Source: Thermococcus argininiproducens
Lineage (GTDB): Archaea > Methanobacteriota_B > Thermococci > Thermococcales > Thermococcaceae
DNA length: 64,000 bases
Assembly (NCBI RefSeq): GCF_023746595.1
Contig: NZ_CP080572.1
Span: forward strand, 62,001 to 126,000
Direction of reading: 5' to 3'
The position numbers and the translations under genes are program-made. Shown here piece after piece: positions 26,872 to 37,773 of the stretch (position 1 is the stretch's first letter; each line of letters begins with the position of its first letter). The notes under the pieces are model-generated. The model saw nothing but the letters and a program-made list of their open reading frames with translations, ran no database searches and was not told the DNA's origin.

Positions 26872-27681
26872 ATGTTAGTGAAAAGGGATAATGGGAGGAT
26901 ATTCTTTAAAAATAGTGAAAAAGGCATTGTTATAATCAAAGACGACTTTCTAACTACTGATCTAATTCCTGAAAATAGCGTTGATTTGTTGATAACTTCT
27001 CCACCGTACAATGTAGATATCAGTTATGAGTCCTACAAAGATAATATACCCTATGAAGTGTATTTAGAATTTACTCAAAAATGGTTAAGTAAGGCTTTGG
27101 ATCTCATGAAACCCGATGGGAGAATGTGCCTGAATATTCCACTCGATAAGAGCAGGGGGAGGAGTAATGAAGGGTTCCAAAGTGTCTATGCTGATATAGT
27201 TACCCTTGCAAAGAAGGTAGGTTGGAAGTACATGACGACTATTGTTTGGAATGAGAGTAACATATCCCGTAGAACAGCGTGGGGTAGCTTTGCAAAAGCT
27301 TCGGCACCTTACGTCATAGCTCCCGTTGAAATGATAGTGGTGATGTACAAAGAAACTTGGAAAAAAATGCATGGGGGAAGATCAGATATCTCCAAGAAAG
27401 AGTTCATAGAGTGGACACTTGGCTTATGGGAATTTTCCGGAGAAAACCCCAAACGAGTAAAACATCCAGCCCCATTTCCTCTTGAATTGCCTAAACGGTG
27501 TATAAAACTTTTTAGTTACGTCGGAGATACTGTCTTAGATCCATTTATGGGCAGTGGGACAACATTAGTAGCTGCTACTCTACTAGGAAGAAAGGGAATA
27601 GGTGTTGAAATAGAATCAAAATATTGTGAAATTGCTAAGAAGAGGTTAATAGAAGAAGGAAAAATCCTTGAAAAAGATTAG
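26872..27681 (+). CDS. Solitary site-specific DNA methyltransferase (probable N4-cytosine)
   Basis: This 269-residue methyltransferase has catalytic motif TSPPY (LLITSPPYNVDIS, near residue 43) early and the AdoMet-binding DPFMGSGTT motif late (about residue 223), an order typical of beta-class enzymes. SPPY rather than DPPY favours N4-cytosine over N6-adenine methylation. A target-recognition region probably lies between about 110 and 195. No restriction endonuclease gene is adjacent, so it is an orphan. The start at 26872 follows GATAGGTA; its neighbours (RHH fragment, IS-like hairpin) mark an accessory patch. Confidence 0.85.
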   Translation: MLVKRDNGRIFFKNSEKGIVIIKDDFLTTDLIPENSVDLLITSPPYNVDISYESYKDNIPYEVYLEFTQKWLSKALDLMKPDGRMCLNIPLDKSRGRSNEGFQSVYADIVTLAKKVGWKYMTTIVWNESNISRRTAWGSFAKASAPYVIAPVEMIVVMYKETWKKMHGGRSDISKKEFIEWTLGLWEFSGENPKRVKHPAPFPLELPKRCIKLFSYVGDTVLDPFMGSGTTLVAATLLGRKGIGVEIESKYCEIAKKRLIEEGKILEKD

Positions 27682-27829: not shown

Positions 27830-28840
27830 TCAGCAAACTCTAGGCACCGGATCCCCAACAGGGGGCTCTAAAAATCTCTTTCCACCAATGCCTGTCTCAA
27901 GAAGGACTTTTCCAACATACTGGTCAGTTACTTCGCCTATTATGGCCGCTTCCCTTCCAAGTTTGGTCTTTCTCATGGCCTCTAAGGCATCTTCAGCGAA
28001 TTCCCTGTCAACTATCATTACCACTTTCCCCTCGTTTGCCACTTCGTAGGGGTTTATACCAAGCATATCACTTGCAGCCCTTACTTCGGGTTTTACTGGG
28101 ATATCACTCTCCCTTACGAGAATCCCAACATTGCTCTTTCTTGCTATTTCATTTAGGGCATTACTTAACCCGCCTCTTGTGGGATCCTTCATTGCATGGA
28201 TATGCTCCCACCCTATAATTTTCGCAACGCTCTTTATAACCTCCCATATTGGTGCCACGTCACTTTTCAGCTCTGTCTCAAATCCTATGCCCTCTCTATG
28301 GCTCATTAAAGCTATCCCGTGATCTCCCACAGTGCCGCTTACCAAAACAACATCTCCCACTTTTGCCCCTGAATCACTTATTGGTCTTTCAGCTATCCCA
28401 ATCCCAGCAGTTATCACGAATATTCCAACTTTATCCTCCACGACTTTTGTATCCCCAGTCACTATCGGAACAGGTACCTCTTGAGCAGTCTTATCCATTG
28501 ATTTCAAGATCCTCTCAAAATCCTCGCCATCGAATCCTTCCTGAATTATCATTGAATTCCCTAAAGCCAAGGGCTTTGCCCCCATGACGGCTAAGTCATT
28601 CACCGTGCCACTTACCGCTAATCTTCCCACGTCTCCGCCAGGGAAAAATAAGGGCTTAACTGTGTGACCATCTATGGTGAATACTAAATGTTTATCTCCA
28701 AAAGGAATCGTTGCTCCATCATCCAAAGCCTCTAACCCAATTCCGCCTGCCGAATTCAAGGTTACATTCTTTAAAATGACCTCTTTAATAAGCTCTCCCA
28801 TTAATTCTCCACCAGCTCCATGTTCCAGCTTAATTTTCAT
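27830..28840 (-). CDS. hypE: Hydrogenase maturation protein HypE
   Basis: This 336-residue protein has the HypE features: KLEHGAGGELMGELI at the N terminus, VSGTVNDLAVMGAKPLAL (ATP binding), PIVTGDTKVVE, DPTRGGLSNALNEIA, and the essential C-terminal Cys in the ending PRVC. It dehydrates the thiocarboxamide on that Cys to thiocyanate, which gives the CN ligands of [NiFe] hydrogenases, working with HypF encoded at 30530-32842. The ATG follows GGGTGATAACTC and a TATTTAAACC promoter around 28905-28915. Confidence 0.94.
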   Translation of the reverse strand: MKIKLEHGAGGELMGELIKEVILKNVTLNSAGGIGLEALDDGATIPFGDKHLVFTIDGHTVKPLFFPGGDVGRLAVSGTVNDLAVMGAKPLALGNSMIIQEGFDGEDFERILKSMDKTAQEVPVPIVTGDTKVVEDKVGIFVITAGIGIAERPISDSGAKVGDVVLVSGTVGDHGIALMSHREGIGFETELKSDVAPIWEVIKSVAKIIGWEHIHAMKDPTRGGLSNALNEIARKSNVGILVRESDIPVKPEVRAASDMLGINPYEVANEGKVVMIVDREFAEDALEAMRKTKLGREAAIIGEVTDQYVGKVLLETGIGGKRFLEPPVGDPVPRVC

Positions 28841-28944: not shown

Positions 28945-29421
28945 TTAAGCCTCACTTTCAGTCAATATCCGGAGAAGCACTCTGTAAAATAAATACGTGG
29001 AAACCAGAGGATAAATCAAACCCAACAAGTGTACGCCATAATAGGAAGCATATCCAACATATGGAAGAGAAATGAAGAGCTTTCCTATGATGTTCTCCTT
29101 GTTCACATACCAGGCATCGGCATGCTCTCTGTTATCTCCCTTTGTTATGTAAATAACTCCTTTCCCCATCTCTTTTATATCCACCACCCTATGGAGCACT
29201 TTGTATTTCTTTTTTGAAAGCTCCACCTCGTAAAGAATAACATCACCAATCTTAATGTCGTTTCTTGGAGACACTATTACCAAGGAAAAGGGCTTTATCA
29301 TAGGTTCCATAGAATCCGTTAAAACTATCACACTCTTAAATCCAAGCAAGTGAAGAAGAACAAACAATATCAACGCAAAAAATAAAATGTAACCTAAGAG
29401 GGTTTCCAAGAACTGCCTCAT
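28945..29421 (-). CDS. Signal peptidase I, archaeal/SipW type (S26B)
   Basis: This protein of about 158 residues has an N-terminal transmembrane helix (LLGYILFFALILFVLLHLLG), the catalytic Ser in VLTDSMEPMIKP, a His in VLHRVVDI where bacterial enzymes have Lys, and Asp in TKGDNREHADAWY, so it uses the Ser-His arrangement of archaeal/ER/SipW enzymes. C-terminal hydrophobic segments follow (VGYASYYGVHLLGLIYPLVSTYLFY). The ATG at 29421 follows GAGGTG; the GTG at 29430 is the alternative. It lies 36 bases downstream of a small exported protein, its likely client. Confidence 0.85.
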   Translation of the reverse strand: MRQFLETLLGYILFFALILFVLLHLLGFKSVIVLTDSMEPMIKPFSLVIVSPRNDIKIGDVILYEVELSKKKYKVLHRVVDIKEMGKGVIYITKGDNREHADAWYVNKENIIGKLFISLPYVGYASYYGVHLLGLIYPLVSTYLFYRVLLRILTESEA

Positions 29422-29457
29422 TTTCCGCACCTCAAAAAATTAAAAGAGATAATGAAT

Positions 29458-29874
29458 TCATGGCCCTTGAACAACAACTGCAACGTTTTCCACTTGGCTT
29501 ATTTGAACCTGAGTTGGAAAATTTATTGGCAGAGATGTTCCCATTGGGAGATCAACACTTGGAGTATAACTTCCAACTGCAAGTAGATTACTCGAATTAT
29601 CATAGAGCTTTACATAAATTGTTGAGCCCGCTGAAACATCCTTATCAAATGAGACCTCCACTCCGGTTATATAGTCAGGGTTTGTGCTGTTAAGCAAGAA
29701 TTTAATGTTCCCATTATCCACAGGAGAGGTCACAGGGGCAGAACCTTCACCAATGTTCTGGACGTTTAGGTTTATCACTGGAACTGCCAGAGCGGCGTTT
29801 ACTAACAAAAATGTAAGAGCTGATAACAGGGCCAAAACTTTCTTATTTCCCCCAATCAATCTTACCTCCCTCAT
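29458..29874 (-). CDS. Small exported beta-rich protein (possible TasA/camelysin-like pilus subunit)
   Basis: This 138-residue protein has a signal peptide with basic start and hydrophobic core (KKVLALLSALTFLLVNAALA) and a mature part that looks all-beta (INLNVQNIGEG, ITGVEVSFDKDVSAGSTI, YVKLYD, NVAVVVQGP). No Cys is present. It is encoded directly upstream of a SipW-type signal peptidase, the pairing seen for TasA fibres in Bacillus. The ATG follows GGGGAGGTGGCAGA and a CTTTTTAAAGGG promoter near 29920. Identity as a filament subunit is an inference from layout and secondary structure pattern. Confidence 0.6.
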   Translation of the reverse strand: MREVRLIGGNKKVLALLSALTFLLVNAALAVPVINLNVQNIGEGSAPVTSPVDNGNIKFLLNSTNPDYITGVEVSFDKDVSAGSTIYVKLYDNSSNLLAVGSYTPSVDLPMGTSLPINFPTQVQISQVENVAVVVQGP

Positions 29875-30064
29875 TCTGCCACCTCCCCAGCGTTATTCAG
29901 CAAAAGGGACTAAAGGTCTCCCTTTAAAAAGTTATCTAACTAATAATAGTAAAGAATACACGATTTACATTAATAAACATTCCAAAATTTGTTTAGCTAC
30001 TTAAACCAAAACCTTGTCACAAGGTTTATAATAGCAGAAAGGGGCAACACATAGTGGGAAAACT

Positions 30065-30523
30065 ATGAAACGGGCCATGCTTCCCTTTATAATTTTCATG
30101 CTTTTCCTGGTATGTTCTCTTGTCCTTTCCTATACCTATATCCAGATAATTCCCCAACAACTTGGAGAAGGGAGACTTTATATATGCAAACTTCCTGTTA
30201 GTTTATCCCTCCCAGAAGCAAACAAAGAATACTCCGCAGAGATTTTAATAGACCCAGAAACAGTTCCGCTCTGGGGCAAACGGGGGTATGTGTATGCAAC
30301 CCTAGATGAAAACGGCACTCAACCCATTTATTATTGGGTCAAAAACTCCACAACAATCTGGATTGATATCCCTCCCACCAACAGCACATCCATTAAAATC
30401 TTTATCTGGTATTGTGGCCTCGATAACCCATACAAGGATTACGAAAACAGTACAAAGTTTTTGAGTGTTTACAAACTCCCGCACTCCCTCGAAAACACCA
30501 CAGTATACCTAAAATTCAAATGA
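30065..30523 (+). CDS. Membrane-anchored DUF2341-like protein
   Basis: This 152-residue protein has an N-terminal hydrophobic anchor (MLPFIIFMLFLVCSLVLSYTYI) followed by an extracellular beta domain. The block QPIYYWVKNSTTIWIDIPPTNSTSIKIFIWYCG resembles the DUF2341 signature of archaeal surface proteins. Several Asn-x-Ser/Thr glycosylation sites occur. It diverges from the exported protein/signal peptidase pair and has a promoter around 30020-30035 (AAGGTTTATAATAG). It probably belongs to the same envelope-related cluster inserted between hypE and hypF. Confidence 0.6.
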   Translation: MKRAMLPFIIFMLFLVCSLVLSYTYIQIIPQQLGEGRLYICKLPVSLSLPEANKEYSAEILIDPETVPLWGKRGYVYATLDENGTQPIYYWVKNSTTIWIDIPPTNSTSIKIFIWYCGLDNPYKDYENSTKFLSVYKLPHSLENTTVYLKFK

Positions 30524-30529
30524 AAAAAG

Positions 30530-32842
30530 TTAAAGGATAAGATCCTCTCTGGTTAGATATCCCTCAAGATAAAGACCTCCAAGGAAAGCCTGTCCAACGT
30601 TTATGCCATTGTCTCCTCTTGGCACCTCGTGAGTTGTGTAAAACCTGAGACCGTTGCTTTCCACAATCTTTCTAATTGTCTTAACAATCAGTTCATTGTA
30701 AGCCACTCCACCGCTGAGAGCCACGTTTTTAATACCAAACTCCTTGGCCTTCTCAACCGTTACTTCCCCAAAGGTCCTTCCCAGAGCCAGGTGAATGGAA
30801 TACGCAATATCCGCGGGGTTTGCTTTGCTTTCTAAAACCTGTCTAAAGAGTTCTTCAATCTTGAGTTCCTCTCCCTCAACTGGAATACTGAATCCTAAGT
30901 CATTCTTTCCTCTAAATGCAACGCCTTCAAGCTTCATCGCAGGTTCTCCCTCGTAAGTCCTTCTATAAGCAACGTTAAGAAGAACGGCGAATGCATCAAG
31001 AACCCTTCCCGTAGAGGAGGCATAGCTAACGTTTATATCTCTGGCTAGCTGATTTAGGATAACATTGAACTCAACTTTTCCATACCTTAAGTTCTCAATG
31101 GCCCTTGGGCAGCATTTTCTGACTAACTCTTCTATCTCTTCCACACTGTACATCTTGTTTAAAATACCCACTAAAGCCCTTAGTGGATAATAGCTGGCTA
31201 AGTCACCACCAGGAAGAGGATAATAGCTTATGTGTGCCAATCTTTCAACATCTTCATAGCTGAGGTAGACGACTTCCCCTCCCCAAGTGTGCCCATCACT
31301 TCCATAACCAACTCCATCCAGAGCTATGCCTACAACTCCATCAAGTTTATTCTCGGCCATCACAGAGGCAACGTGGGCATAATGGTGCTGAACCTGGAGG
31401 AACTCCACCCCCTCCTCTTCCGCCATTTCCATGGCGAGCTTTGTGGTGTTGTAAAGGGGATGAAGATCGGCGACTACCAGATCTAAGTTTTTAACTCTGA
31501 GAATCTTCTTGAAGTGTGTCACCGCGTCTCTCATAAACTCCAGAACTTCCACCTTTGACGTATTTCCAATGTATTGGCTTGGATAAACTTTGGAGTTCTT
31601 TGCAATACCAAAGGCATTCATAAGCTCTGCACCAACTGCTATCCCATTATATTCAAAGGGAATCTCTACTGGAAGGGGTACAAACCCCCTGCTCCTTCTT
31701 ATTACAGCCCTCCTTCCATCAACAAATCTTATCACGCTATCATCGGTTCTGTTGAGTATTTTCCTATTGTGAAGAAGGAAGTAATCGGCCAACTCTTTCA
31801 GTTCTTTAAATGCCCTCTCGTTATCTATGACCATTGGCATTCCGGGATAATTTGCAGATGTCATAACATAAACCGGGCTCTTTGAGTAGTGGAAAAGTAT
31901 GTAATGTGTACCCGCATATGGTAGCATGACTCCGATTGTTGGGAGTCCAGGAGCCAGAGACTCCGGCAATGGGAACGGTTCTTTTTTCCTTAGAGCCACT
32001 ATTGGCTTTCTATACCCTAAAAGTTCTTGCTTTTCAACTTCATTTACTATGGCAAATTCCTCAACTGTTTCCAAATCCCTTGCCATTATTGCAAATGGCT
32101 GTTCGGGCCTGAGAATTCTCTTCCTGAGTTCTCTTACAACTTCCTCATTTGCGGCATCGCACGCTATGTGTATCCCACCAATCCCCTTTATGGCCACTAT
32201 GTAGCCTTTGTCTATTAATTCTGCAGCCCTTTTTAGGGGATCACCTGTTAGCTCTTCCCCTTCGTTGGTGTAGAGACGATAGCTTGGGCCACATACAGGA
32301 CAGCAAACAGGCTCAGCGTGATATCTTCTATTCAACGGATCCTTATACTCGCTCTCACAGTAATCACACATATCAAATTCTCTCATTGTTGTATTAATCC
32401 TGTCATAGGGCAGATCTTCTATTATAGTAAACCTGGGCCCGCAGTTGGTGCACACTATAAATGGATACATGTACCTTTTATCCGCCGGATCAAAAAGCTC
32501 TCTAAGACAATCATCACATATGCTAACATCAGGAGGTATAACCGAATCCCCTCCTCCACCGCCATTGGAACTTTTCTCAATGTAGAATCTGTCAAAACCC
32601 TGAAGCGGAAGCTCTTTTGTTTTTATCTTCTCTACCCTTGCCAGAGGAGGTGCCTTATCCTTGAGATCTTTCAAAAATGCTCTTATATTCTCCTCTTTAC
32701 CCTCAACAACAATTTCAACTCCCGCATCACCAAGATTTTTAACATAGCCTCTCAAACCGTGTTCATGAGCGATTCTGTAGATGAAGGGTCTGAAACCGAC
32801 TCCCTGAACTATCCCCTCAACGTGAATATGATAAGTTTTCAC
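30530..32842 (-). CDS. hypF: Carbamoyltransferase HypF
   Basis: This protein of about 770 residues has all HypF modules: acylphosphatase domain (HVEGIVQGVGFRPFIYRIA), two zinc fingers (CDDCLREL...CTNCGP and CDYCESEY...CCPVCGP), a YrdC-like domain (about 190-370), and a Kae1/TobZ-like carbamoyltransferase domain with VQHHYAHVASV. It transfers a carbamoyl group to the HypE C-terminal Cys. The GTG at 32842 (MKTYHIHVEG) has GGTGG five bases upstream and is preferred to the GTG at 32851. A weak TATA (AACTTTTGGTTTT region, about 32880-32900) precedes it. Confidence 0.94.
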   Translation of the reverse strand: MKTYHIHVEGIVQGVGFRPFIYRIAHEHGLRGYVKNLGDAGVEIVVEGKEENIRAFLKDLKDKAPPLARVEKIKTKELPLQGFDRFYIEKSSNGGGGGDSVIPPDVSICDDCLRELFDPADKRYMYPFIVCTNCGPRFTIIEDLPYDRINTTMREFDMCDYCESEYKDPLNRRYHAEPVCCPVCGPSYRLYTNEGEELTGDPLKRAAELIDKGYIVAIKGIGGIHIACDAANEEVVRELRKRILRPEQPFAIMARDLETVEEFAIVNEVEKQELLGYRKPIVALRKKEPFPLPESLAPGLPTIGVMLPYAGTHYILFHYSKSPVYVMTSANYPGMPMVIDNERAFKELKELADYFLLHNRKILNRTDDSVIRFVDGRRAVIRRSRGFVPLPVEIPFEYNGIAVGAELMNAFGIAKNSKVYPSQYIGNTSKVEVLEFMRDAVTHFKKILRVKNLDLVVADLHPLYNTTKLAMEMAEEEGVEFLQVQHHYAHVASVMAENKLDGVVGIALDGVGYGSDGHTWGGEVVYLSYEDVERLAHISYYPLPGGDLASYYPLRALVGILNKMYSVEEIEELVRKCCPRAIENLRYGKVEFNVILNQLARDINVSYASSTGRVLDAFAVLLNVAYRRTYEGEPAMKLEGVAFRGKNDLGFSIPVEGEELKIEELFRQVLESKANPADIAYSIHLALGRTFGEVTVEKAKEFGIKNVALSGGVAYNELIVKTIRKIVESNGLRFYTTHEVPRGDNGINVGQAFLGGLYLEGYLTREDLIL

Positions 32843-33005
32843 TACTCCCACCTATTCCAGAATCGAAAAAAGGGCATTTATACCTTTTCAAAACCAAAAG
32901 TTAAAAACTAATGAAGAGTTTTTAACCCAAGGTTGCTAGACTAAAGGTTTAACCAACAAAAAGACTAAAAATGACAAGAATTATAATTTCAATGGTGTAC
33001 CCGTT

Positions 33006-33272
33006 ATGTATATCATCGTAGTTTACGATGTGAACGTTTCTCGAGTAAATAAAGTGAAGAAGTTTTTGAGACAGCATTTAATCTGGGTTCAAAATAGCGT
33101 CTTTGAAGGGGAAGTTACACTAGCCGAATACGAGAGAATTAAAAAAGGAATTAAAGAGCTTATTGATGAGGATGAAGACTCCGTGATCATTTACAAGTTA
33201 AGATCAAGGCCAAAAAGAAAGAGTATTGGAATAGAGAAGAATCCGGTGGAGGAATTATTTAGCACATATTGA
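33006..33272 (+). CDS. cas2: CRISPR adaptation protein Cas2
   Basis: This 88-residue protein begins [23 protein letters not shown], the ferredoxin-fold start of Cas2 with Asp8, followed by [12 protein letters not shown] and an acidic middle. Cas2 dimers bridge Cas1 dimers in the spacer integrase. Unlike all other cas genes here it is on the plus strand, and its end overlaps the end of the first cas4 by 18 bases. An AATTATAATTTC element near 32978 may be its promoter. Functional partnership with the cas1 at 33954 is expected. Confidence 0.92.
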
Positions 33273-33950
33273 CCTAAAAATACACCTTTTACATTCCCAG
33301 TTAAAGCGTAGTTTCGGGTCTTTGGGGAATTCTCCATTCTCTATGGATTCAATGAGCTCAATGATGCCTCTGGCTCTCTTCAAAAACGCCTTAAATGCCT
33401 TTGAATCTTTTTTAATTTCTAGCTTTTTCCATGGAATTAGCTCATTATGTCGAAATATCCATAGGTGTCCAAATTCTGCATCAGGAAGCATGTTTAGATA
33501 CGCATTTAGCTGCTCTGTATACGCGTTCAACACACTATCCTCTTCAACATCACTAAGGTTTTCAGGTATTTTTTCGTAAGAGAACTCACTAAAGAACTTA
33601 AACTCGAACACGTGTTCTCCTATTACAAGATCAATCCTACCAGTTAAAAGCCATCCTTCTCCCAAGTCGTATGAGACTTCTTTTTCTATCTCAGGATTAG
33701 CCTCAATATCGCCCTGCAAATATGGCCATGAATCCTTGATAAGCCCTAAAAGGCCCATGTGAAGTACCTGGCCTAGTATCTTTTCCTTATTTTTCTCTCC
33801 AAAAAACCTAACGTCGTACCGAGTGGTTAAAGCTGCCCTCAAAGGACAAAAAGAAACAGAAGTCACTCTGATGGTCCTTTTAGGTCCCCTGATATTCCCA
33901 TACTTAAGAAGGTTTTCCAATCGCTTTCCAAACTCCTCTATGTTCCCCAC
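33255..33950 (-). CDS. cas4: Cas4-family exonuclease (Csa1/Cas4-2-like)
   Basis: This 231-residue protein is a PD-(D/E)xK nuclease with the Cas4 Cys arrangement: [11 protein letters not shown] near residue 33 and [10 protein letters not shown] at the C terminus, likely binding an Fe-S cluster. The nuclease core is [19 protein letters not shown] followed by the Gln-containing EQLNAYLNM. It is longer than the second cas4 at 34927 and probably plays the separate role described for Cas4-2 in P. furiosus, where the two Cas4 proteins set PAM and orientation of new spacers. It follows cas1 by three bases. Confidence 0.85.
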
Positions 33951-33953
33951 CCC

Positions 33954-35454
<1,501 letters not shown>

Positions 35455-35571
35455 TTATAAATTGATTTATAACAAATGAAACTGTAATTTTCATTATAGT
35501 TTTGGCTATAACTTGCGTTACACTTGTTATTGGAACACCAACAACTGTAATTTCTATTACTACATTCTAAT

Positions 35572-37773
35572 CTACACTATTTCCTCTTTCTCACAGACGT
35601 TAATCTCATCAATAAATTCAGATAACCTTTTGGAATCAAAGTAACCAACTTCATTCGAATAGAGAAATCTTGAACTAGACAGTGTTGGGAAGTTGTGATA
35701 CGTACTTGGAAAACTATCCTCGGAAAATAACCACCATATTGGGATTGGAGTAAGGTATTCCTTTATTTTTTGAAGTCTGTACTTACTACTGCTAGCCAGT
35801 ATATCGGCAATCTTGTCAATAAAACATTCTGGAATGACTAGGATTGTGTTTGTTTCCCTGAAATTAAGGATTTTATCTAGCTCTTTATCGTTTAAATCTA
35901 TTGAGAAAAAGTATCTTGTATCATTATCCCATTTTTGAATGTATTTGTCAATCTCTTTTAACTTGGTTTTATCTAGTTTTAATGAACTCTCTTTAAACTG
36001 CTCTATTAGTTCAAATTCTGTTTTAATATTTCCATCAAACTCCTCTAAAATGGTTTTCGCTAAGCTTAATTCATCTAAATTGTAAGGATAACGTCTTCTA
36101 TCATCTAGTTCGGACGGTTTTAGGATTTTTACATTTTCATTATTTGTGAAAGTTGAATACCTATTAACTCTTCCGAACCTCTGAATTAAGGAAGATAGTG
36201 GCGCAAGTTCTGTGAATAGATAATCAAAAGACATATCAAGGCTTACTTCAGCAACCTGTGTAGAAACAAAAACAAAACCTTTAGACATCCTTGAGAACTT
36301 TTCTAATTGGATTTCTTTTTCTTTTCTGTCCTTGTATGTAAATCTTGAGTGTAGGATAAGTATCTCCCTGATCTTATAGTGATGTTTTAGTAAAAGATAG
36401 ATTTTGATGGCTTTTTCTACTGTGTTACATACAACTAATACATTTCCATCCTGTGTTCTTTCTGCTATTTTCTCGAGAGTAGTAGGATCAGTAATATCTT
36501 CTTCACTAATAGAATATATATATCTCCTTCTTCTTTTATATTCTTCAGTAAAATCAAATGAAGTCGGAGATATATAGAAGCTAACCAAGTTTTCTAACGC
36601 TGGGTGCACAGTAGCTGACATAAACACTGTTTTGATATTGTAGTTGAACTCTTGGTTATATTTCTGTATGAAATTCAGGAGGATGTAGAGTCCACTTATC
36701 GGATAAAGATGAAACTCATCGAAGATAAATATTGAATTTCTAAAGTGAAATCTTTTGAGGAAATATTTCCCTACGTGAAGGAAAGTTAAGATTATCTGAT
36801 CAAGCGTTGTTAAAGTAACAGGACTCATAAATGATCTTGAAATAAAAAGTTCCCAATCAACACTTCTTTCATAATCTTTCTGTTTTGTTACTTTTTCAAC
36901 ATCGGCAAAATAATAATTATCCTCAACCTTCATTTTCAGGATTTTTTTAATTGTTTCTTTCATTTTCCTTATTGATGTTATTGTCGGAAGAACATAGATT
37001 ATATGAGTTGGAGTTTTGGTAGAGGCTATTGTTAAAGAGGCAAACGTTTTTCCCCATCCAGTAGGAGCTGAGAATAAGATATGTTCACCAGAGTTTGCCA
37101 TATTCAGGAATAGCTCCCACTTTTTCTCATTAAATTGTAACCCTTTATCTTTTACATATCTTTGTAATCCTTGTTTAATATCTGTTTCCCTAAAAGAAGG
37201 TTTCTCTTTAATAATTTCGTTTTCACTTTCAAACATTGCTGAAACAATGTCTGTGGTCTTAAAAATTCCAAAGAGATCCACATAAATCACATTTTCTCTT
37301 TTGTTCCTTTCAATGAATTCATTAAGTTGTTTCGTTTCTTGATAAATTAAACGAAATACACTATTGTAGTCAATAGGGAACTGTATTCTTCCAAGGACAT
37401 TTTTAGCTAGGTAATTTGGATGTGAAAGAATTGGAGTTAAATGGGAATGATGCCTTAAGATGAAATAAAATATTTTAGGATCTTTAATGTTAGAATATCT
37501 TAAAAACAGATAAGCTGAAAGCGCAGAATGAGGTGGTTTTTTCTTTTTAGTTATGTCCCATCTTGGATTCAACTTCCCTAAATCATGCCACCATGCCAAT
37601 GTTTTTAATATTTTTTCATGATCTTGTAGCCTATGCTTCTGTGCCAGAATCTTAGAAACTCTAATAATTTCCTCAATATGTTGCTTTAATGATTTTTCTT
37701 GTTGCTCGTTTTTATGTGATGTTTTTGAGAGTATATCCAATCCTAAATTTAGCAACATCTTTTCATTTATCAT
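35572..37773 (-). CDS. cas3: CRISPR type I helicase-nuclease Cas3
   Basis: This 733-residue protein fuses an N-terminal HD nuclease (LKTLAWWHDLGKLNPRWD, near residue 62) to a superfamily 2 helicase: Walker A LFSAPTGWGKT (about 237), FIFDEFHLY (DExH box, about 355), MSATVHP (motif III) and QRFGRVNRYS (motif VI, about 545). It degrades target DNA after Cascade recognition. It overlaps cas5 by one base, as the last gene of the interference operon. Both catalytic parts look intact. Confidence 0.94.
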   Translation of the reverse strand: MINEKMLLNLGLDILSKTSHKNEQQEKSLKQHIEEIIRVSKILAQKHRLQDHEKILKTLAWWHDLGKLNPRWDITKKKKPPHSALSAYLFLRYSNIKDPKIFYFILRHHSHLTPILSHPNYLAKNVLGRIQFPIDYNSVFRLIYQETKQLNEFIERNKRENVIYVDLFGIFKTTDIVSAMFESENEIIKEKPSFRETDIKQGLQRYVKDKGLQFNEKKWELFLNMANSGEHILFSAPTGWGKTFASLTIASTKTPTHIIYVLPTITSIRKMKETIKKILKMKVEDNYYFADVEKVTKQKDYERSVDWELFISRSFMSPVTLTTLDQIILTFLHVGKYFLKRFHFRNSIFIFDEFHLYPISGLYILLNFIQKYNQEFNYNIKTVFMSATVHPALENLVSFYISPTSFDFTEEYKRRRRYIYSISEEDITDPTTLEKIAERTQDGNVLVVCNTVEKAIKIYLLLKHHYKIREILILHSRFTYKDRKEKEIQLEKFSRMSKGFVFVSTQVAEVSLDMSFDYLFTELAPLSSLIQRFGRVNRYSTFTNNENVKILKPSELDDRRRYPYNLDELSLAKTILEEFDGNIKTEFELIEQFKESSLKLDKTKLKEIDKYIQKWDNDTRYFFSIDLNDKELDKILNFRETNTILVIPECFIDKIADILASSSKYRLQKIKEYLTPIPIWWLFSEDSFPSTYHNFPTLSSSRFLYSNEVGYFDSKRLSEFIDEINVCEKEEIV

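Follow-up and report, generated by a model that had tools for sequence, protein, structure and literature searches.

A Thermococcaceae gene module between hypF and hypE that appears to encode a surface fibre or surface complex

Only three small genes lie between hypF and hypE in the analyzed window, i.e., the whole stretch of 64,000 nucleotides of Thermococcus argininiproducens DNA. They encode a signal peptidase, a small exported β protein, and a divergently transcribed exported partner that resembles DUF2341 proteins (Table 1). The divergent intergenic region carries a TATA-like box in each direction, TTTATAAT at positions 30025-30032 on the plus strand and TTTAAAAA at positions 29923-29930 read on the minus strand; both boxes were recognized by eye and are retained across five aligned genomes of the same genus. 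A scan for bacterial-type promoters and terminators gave no matches above the level of shuffled sequence. Beyond hypF, the genes at window positions 33006-37773 read as CRISPR-Cas-like (cas2-, cas4-, cas1-, and cas3-like), and on the other flank, the open reading frame at positions 26872-27681 contains the SPPYN and DPFMGSGTT motifs, which we take to indicate a likely DNA methyltransferase.

Table 1. Features of the interval between hypF and hypE and of its flanks (window positions)
Feature	Position	Strand	Remarks
hypE	27830..28840	-	AIRS/AIRS_C Pfam domains; left flank of insertion
SipW/Sec11-type signal peptidase, 161 aa	28945..29430	-	TIGR02228; start probably ATG 29421
Small exported β protein, 138 aa, proposed repeating subunit	29458..29874	-	
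Predicted Ig-like β-sandwich domain of the small protein, six strands, residues 53-138	29461..29718	-	AlphaFold2 and structure matches
Conserved mature N-terminal strand AVPVINLNVQNIGEG of the small protein, residues 30-44, proposed donor strand	29743..29787	-	
Divergent intergenic region, 190 bp, TATA-like boxes both ways	29875..30064		Boxes recognized by eye
Divergent exported DUF2341-like partner, 152 aa, proposed cap/starter/adhesin	30065..30523	+	
Matching strand motif SYTYIQIIPQQLGEG at the mature N terminus of the partner	30128..30172	+	
hypF	30530..32851	-	HypF Pfam domains; right flank of insertion

An earlier proposal that this cluster splits hypE from hypF as an inserted unit was borne out by the spacing of these two genes in module-free congeners. 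The small protein was found by profile search in 6 of the 13 same-genus genomes, and hypE was detected in 11 of the 13. Six module-free genomes have a hypE match, and in five of them it lies 63 to 76 bp from that of hypF, so that the trio can be regarded as an insertion at this junction. The order hypF, DUF2341-like gene, small-protein gene, peptidase gene, hypE is common to five module-bearing congeners, including the one analyzed here; in the sixth, G004, the peptidase gene is cut by the contig end. The remaining module-free genome, G003, has ∼1.5 kb between hypF and hypE, with open reading frames that read as a broken TnpB. These TnpB-like, apparently broken frames (L165:4564-5857, by eye) sit at the junction that is used by the module in its relatives.

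The peptidase scored 92.3 bits with TIGR02228, the profile of the archaeal/ER-type signal peptidase I, passing its cutoff of 51.85, and 68.7 bits with the SipW equivalog NF046067, which is below the cutoff of 190. The LTDSM, LHRV, and KGDNR motifs are present in the alignment, and their Ser, His, and Asp residues, respectively, are presumably the catalytic ones. Judging from the sequence, the more likely start is the ATG at position 29421, with GAGGTG ahead of it, rather than the GTG at position 29430. The open reading frames and the TIGR02228 match confirm what the sequence-only reading had proposed, namely, that a Ser-His signal peptidase is encoded just after a Cys-free exported β protein.

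The latter had been described as having about 110 mature residues. Indeed, it comprises 109 residues from the conserved AVP onward, lacks Cys, has a single, N-terminal hydrophobic segment, and is predicted to form a β domain. Mean column identity within its family is 31%. The AlphaFold2 model of this protein shows pLDDT values of 82 to 94 in blocks of ten from residue 51, with values below 50 for residues 22-48, so that the N-terminal strand is unplaced in the monomer model. Among the structure matches listed, most are Ig-like, weak, and tied (Z of 6.9 or less); the top rows hold GH2 enzyme domains and a repeat from an adhesin, which we take to be Ig-like folds, with unrelated proteins lower. 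Chains of TasA, AbpA, and the archaeal threads are absent among the matches listed, all of which have weak scores, and a Foldseek search with the same model gave no match at E of 0.001 or better. The match to domain 2 of LacZ (3vd4_A; Z of 5.6) covers residues 218 to 318. This domain presumably ends at residue 334, and a match that stops before that end would fit a missing last strand in the small protein.

Sequence searches point in the same direction for some members of the family: Ig-like Pfam matches were found among 35 small-protein relatives for Big_1 (E of 9.7e-6) in 1 and for Invasin_D3 in 4, and DUF4082 matched 5 of the 35. For the window protein itself, no Pfam family matched at E up to 10. 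A PDB sequence search with the single protein gave no match, and the best match with the 35-row family profile was a copper-transport protein (E of 0.034), with no thread chain among the matches listed. Kinship with fimbrin/FimA was rejected, as the corresponding profile matches (E of 1.6 to 1.9) are at chance level. The product of G000:C1:716083 was also rejected as a paralogue, its match being weak (E of 0.098) and the strand motif being absent by eye.

The partner had been taken for a divergent DUF2341-like membrane protein. Its divergent orientation and its similarity to DUF2341 hold, but the only hydrophobic segment is at the N terminus, so the partner looks like an exported protein rather than a membrane protein. 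Pfam DUF2341 (PF10102) did not match it at E up to 10, and the genome scan likewise gave PF10102 matches at another place (C1:618429-619217) and none here. The similarity comes from profile comparison: hhalign gave 96.8% against the N-terminal 150 residues of the DUF2341 proteins of Thermococcus modules, with a shallow alignment of the partner (5 rows, Neff of 1.3) and a comparison alignment of 7 proteins, of which the 2 scanned by Pfam were both over the DUF2341 cutoff. In some loci of the genus designated g3, DUF2341 proteins of 370 aa are encoded between the small protein and the peptidase. In two loci (L110:3510-4598 and L122:2750-3037), the DUF2341 gene at this position appears by eye to be broken up.

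Both exported proteins of the window start, after the signal peptide, with the strand motif xIx[VL]x..Qx[IL]GxG, which is likewise found at the start of the 370-aa DUF2341 class and of the large proteins. In an alignment of all protein classes, the Q and G of the motif are invariant in all 16 rows chosen. In the small family, mature residues 1-15 are the most conserved stretch, with a mean entropy of 1.12 bits versus 1.77 bits for the best other 15-residue window; positions 5, 7, 9, and 12 are hydrophobic in all 35 rows, and positions 4, 6, 8, and 11 are hydrophobic in 40%, 3%, 6%, and 0% of them, respectively. This strand of the small family, conserved and alternating, lies outside the domain that is folded in the monomer model. 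The alternation is imperfect in the partner class, where position 9 (Pro or Ser) is hydrophobic in none of the 5 sequences and positions 4 and 8 are hydrophobic in 5 and 4 of them. Direct profile comparison of the small family gave a weak 56% with the partner class and 86.7%, over the N-terminal part, with the 370-aa DUF2341 class. A genome search with a motif profile that included both window sequences gave no third significant match, the next one being at C1:303413 (E of 0.08).

As a single query, the small protein matched sequences in 11 of 61 genomes, and the profiles of its family found members in 51 of 94 Thermococcaceae genomes. In a set of 396 genomes from 216 genera, such matches were limited to 50 genomes of 3 genera, all of them Thermococcaceae. 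Of the 11 genomes encoding the small protein, 10 gave a peptidase match of at least 106 bits, versus none of the 50 others (like the other co-occurrence counts given here, raw numbers, uncorrected for relatedness), and the 11th genome, G004, has an 85%-identical piece of the peptidase at a contig end. For a closer look at gene neighborhoods, 39 regions with presumed small-form matches were taken; three of these (L128-L130) proved to be large-form genes or a remnant, leaving 36 loci in addition to that of the window. In all 36, the small gene is followed on its own strand by the gene of a peptidase that belongs to the module clade, at a distance of no more than 150 nt in 20 loci and of 1,746 nt at most. 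In one of the loci (G065, L123:1370-2668), a TnpB-like open reading frame was seen by eye between the two genes. In other genera, the module occupies different sites: by pattern matching, 32 of 36 g3 loci have a radical-SAM gene within the stretch taken and 35 have a cupin-like gene, and in G020, the module adjoins a gene whose sequence reads as a sugar-nucleotide epimerase.

A tree of 56 peptidases (57 rows minus one duplicate) places 45 module members on one side of a branch with support of 98/95, with a long-branch warning that includes the branch leading to the genus of the window. The motif LT[DN]SM is found in all 45 module peptidases and in none of the 11 others. The locus is a conserved module of the Thermococcaceae. 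In G020, one cluster encodes the small protein, the peptidase, and then a strand-motif protein in frame with the peptidase. There, the peptidase and the exported strand-motif protein share a single open frame of 421 aa (L055:6364-7629), which represents either a fusion or a read-through.

Many g3 genomes encode an additional large protein at a separate site, with open frames of 279 to 796 aa, most of them at least 460 aa; in G014, G064, and G114, it spans no more than ∼280 to 300 aa. The three such loci that were read have prefoldin-like and epimerase genes as neighbors. Among seven large, 370-aa, or fused proteins scanned against Pfam, four (L056, L058, L060:5251, and L061) were over the DUF2341 cutoff, and three (L060:6781, L062, and the L055 peptidase fusion) were not. 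The large form was found in 37 of 40 g3 genomes with the small form versus 4 of 21 without it (Fisher P of ∼1e-8, uncorrected for kinship); restricting the comparison to genomes with a completeness of 90% or more gave 36 of 38 and 2 of 12. The four large-form genomes without the small form include G088 with a 60-aa remnant, G107 with a contig-end cut, and G097 with a 28-residue small-type piece.

The tandem alignment comprised 21 of the 26 large-protein segments, leaving out L060:6850, L062, L130, and L148:2348, which lack DUF2341 by eye, and also L147. All 21 tandems consist of the first strand motif and a small-type domain followed by a second strand motif, which lies ∼105 to 140 residues downstream of the first and keeps its Ile/Phe and Gly in every sequence; alternation is imperfect in these internal copies as well, where hydrophobic residues occupy one of the inner positions in 48% and one of the outer positions in 52%. 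By profile-profile comparison, the window small protein matches the first half of the tandems at 99.6%, and the window partner matches the second half, i.e., the strand copy plus DUF2341, at 96.1% (hhalign, with a shallow alignment). Relatives of the window organism thus fuse, one after the other, the counterparts of its two separate products. In an AlphaFold model of a natural tandem, built from a shallow, 21-row alignment (mean pLDDT of 66.9), residues 111-136 with the second strand had pLDDT below 50 and were left unplaced, which speaks weakly against the predicted insertion of this strand into the preceding domain.

A fibre role for the locus is plausible. There is about an even chance that the module produces a donor-strand-exchange fibre or a capped oligomer and works like TasA-TapA-SipW with an unrelated subunit. 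In favor of this reading are the gene linkage, the peptidase clade, the strand motif common to both proteins, and their natural fusion in relatives; the unplaced second strand of the tandem, the imperfect alternation in the partner class and the internal copies, and the weak direct profile match between small family and partner class count against it. The dedicated peptidase would trim both exported proteins, so that each of them would begin with the same exposed β strand. The small protein could be an Ig-like domain short of one strand, with the gap filled by the N-terminal strand of a neighboring subunit, and repeated filling might then build a thin fibre outside the cell or an oligomer that is short and capped. 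Since the partner has the same strand on a different head, it would be able to plug the open groove of the small subunit and might serve as a cap, a starter, or a surface-binding tip, comparable to TapA in relation to TasA or to the part proposed for Saci_0405 in threads. A broader version of this proposal, to which we give somewhat less than an even chance, is that of a hitherto undescribed donor-strand fibre class, so far confined to the Thermococcaceae and unrelated to TasA/AbpA, threads, or type IV pili. It would combine a fast-evolving Ig-like rod, a universal plug strand, its own peptidase clade, and interchangeable DUF2341 heads, either separate or socket-fused.

The same linkage, shared strand, and fusion would also be expected if the two exported proteins form just a small surface complex of a subunit and a DUF2341 adhesin, strand-mediated or not, with no fibre at all. 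To judge from the two-domain fusions, a single small domain may be enough for each DUF2341 head. However, the small protein is likely both a donor and an acceptor, which invites chains, and in 37 of the 40 g3 genomes that have the small protein, its gene exists separately, in addition to the large form. Such a complex is a less likely but serious alternative. A fairly improbable option is that the main purpose of the N-terminal stretch is recognition by the dedicated peptidase, the proteins being ordinary secreted ones or sources of released peptides. All protein classes do have the motif directly behind the signal peptide, and peptidase linkage holds for each small-form locus examined, but the second copy of the motif inside all 21 aligned tandems is remote from any signal peptide, and the alternating pattern of the small family fits a buried strand better than a cleavage site.

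The sequence-only reading saw in this locus a possible biofilm fibre of the TasA/AbpA family with its own SipW, mirroring the SipW-TasA pair of Bacillus. With respect to arrangement, the parallel stands: a linked SipW-type peptidase, an exported β subunit, and a DUF2341-like partner form one inserted unit, the gene order is like that of tapA-sipW-tasA, and the SipW profile matches the peptidase, albeit under its cutoff. TasA is likewise a β-sandwich with a donated N-terminal strand, and its filamentous form is similar to Ig domains (PMC10151520, available part), so that the fold cannot separate it from the small protein. Sequence profiles do separate them, and kinship of the small protein with TasA or AbpA is not supported: the small-family alignment scored 0.4% and 0.5% with two alignments of TasA homologues from the same archaea, which scored 99.2% with each other as a positive control and both matched the TasA PDB chains 5of1 and 8aur. 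Neither Pfam nor NCBIfam gave a PF12389 or other TasA/camelysin match to the window protein, and PF12389 is absent from the 25 of 28 Pfam families listed for the 35 relatives. The genome's own TasA/camelysin-family protein (PF12389, over the cutoff) is encoded elsewhere, at C1:602319-602843 (L198:4739-5347), with no peptidase seen by eye beside it among the open reading frames of at least 90 aa. PF12389 matches occur in 73 of the 94 genomes of the family, over the cutoff in 71, and these include at least 16 genomes that lack the small protein (7 in g2, 5 in g1, and 4 in g6). All this makes a TasA/AbpA-family fibre scarcely credible.

The patchy presence of the module in three different chromosomal settings, together with the Ig-like folds and divergent subunit sequences, could also be reconciled with a cargo of a conflict or self/non-self system such as VARTIG, whose secreted Ig-fold proteins are patchily distributed in Thermococcales (available part of PMC8416519). 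Unlike VARTIG, the window locus is not headed by a large hypervariable Ig protein and has no variable downstream array; what stays constant is the pair of small protein and peptidase, and some loci have a DUF2341 gene next to this pair or within it. Such a cargo seems very improbable.

With a donor-strand fibre or capped oligomer as the preferred reading, several known systems provide useful comparisons. In 2022, Wang et al. reportedly described the bundling pili of Pyrobaculum calidifontis, built from the TasA-related AbpA, as an archaeal extracellular fibre formed by strand exchange. The fibre proposed here would be of the same general kind, but the window protein shows no profile relation to TasA and is set apart from AbpA by description only. 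The TasA-TapA-SipW system of Bacillus subtilis is a fibre operon with a dedicated signal peptidase (PMC9674648 and PMC10151520, available parts), in which TapA donates its N terminus to the TasA β-sandwich (PMC10151520). Shared with it, as far as those parts go, are a major secreted β-sandwich, a second secreted protein as N-terminus donor, the dedicated signal peptidase, and, in our proposal, the donated strand. In contrast to TasA, the window subunit is unrelated by profile and, with its 109 mature residues, about half the size of the TasA chains of 210 to 234 residues; further differences are the DUF2341-like partner and the separate TasA homologue elsewhere in the genome.

The Saci_0406/Saci_0405 threads are made of an exported β subunit that has an N-terminal donor strand and for which a signal peptidase I site is predicted, and Saci_0405, which has a donor strand and a non-accepting head, has been proposed to cap them (PMC9715654, available part). 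These features parallel the exported β subunit, the proposed N-terminal donor strand, and the second, putatively capping donor protein of the module. However, thread homologues have in common an N-terminal Asp and a YYY motif, and the available part of the same source makes no mention of a dedicated peptidase (PMC9715654), whereas the window family starts with AVPxIxV, and the window protein and its 34 relatives all begin with AVP and have no mature N-terminal Asp or YYY. DUF2341 proteins encoded in archaeal type IV pilus loci have been proposed to be pilus-tip adhesins (PMC4858521, available part), a role similar to that suggested here for the DUF2341 head. Unlike in those proteins, the head in the module comes after a donor-like strand, and a signal peptidase is encoded in linkage with it.

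The locus appears to represent an undescribed surface-fibre or surface-complex module of the Thermococcaceae; a literature search reaching a minority of subscription papers found no published description of it, which is a weak absence. If the donor-strand reading is true, the dedicated-peptidase fibre plan of Bacillus would have been reached in archaea with an unrelated subunit, in hosts most of which also possess a TasA-family protein, as is the case for 40 of 47 small-protein genomes of the family. The module would explain a set of unannotated exported proteins, its plug motif would predict which surface proteins belong together, and, with its two or three genes, it makes a ready target in Thermococcus.

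In six genomes, a signal peptidase of another kind, with open frames of 310 to 355 aa, is encoded at ∼0.5 to 2.1 kb from PF12389 matches. These pairs are G033 C1:1633644 and 1635943, G014 C1:1781216 and 1783526, G019 C1:121744 and 124070, G023 C1:793577 and 795645, G020 C13:129998 and 132224, and G010 C1:456421 and 455451. The two peptidases of this kind that were read (L170 and L034) have SGSM, and the combination of PF12389 with the second signal peptidase looks like the real tasA-sipW pairing of the Thermococcaceae.
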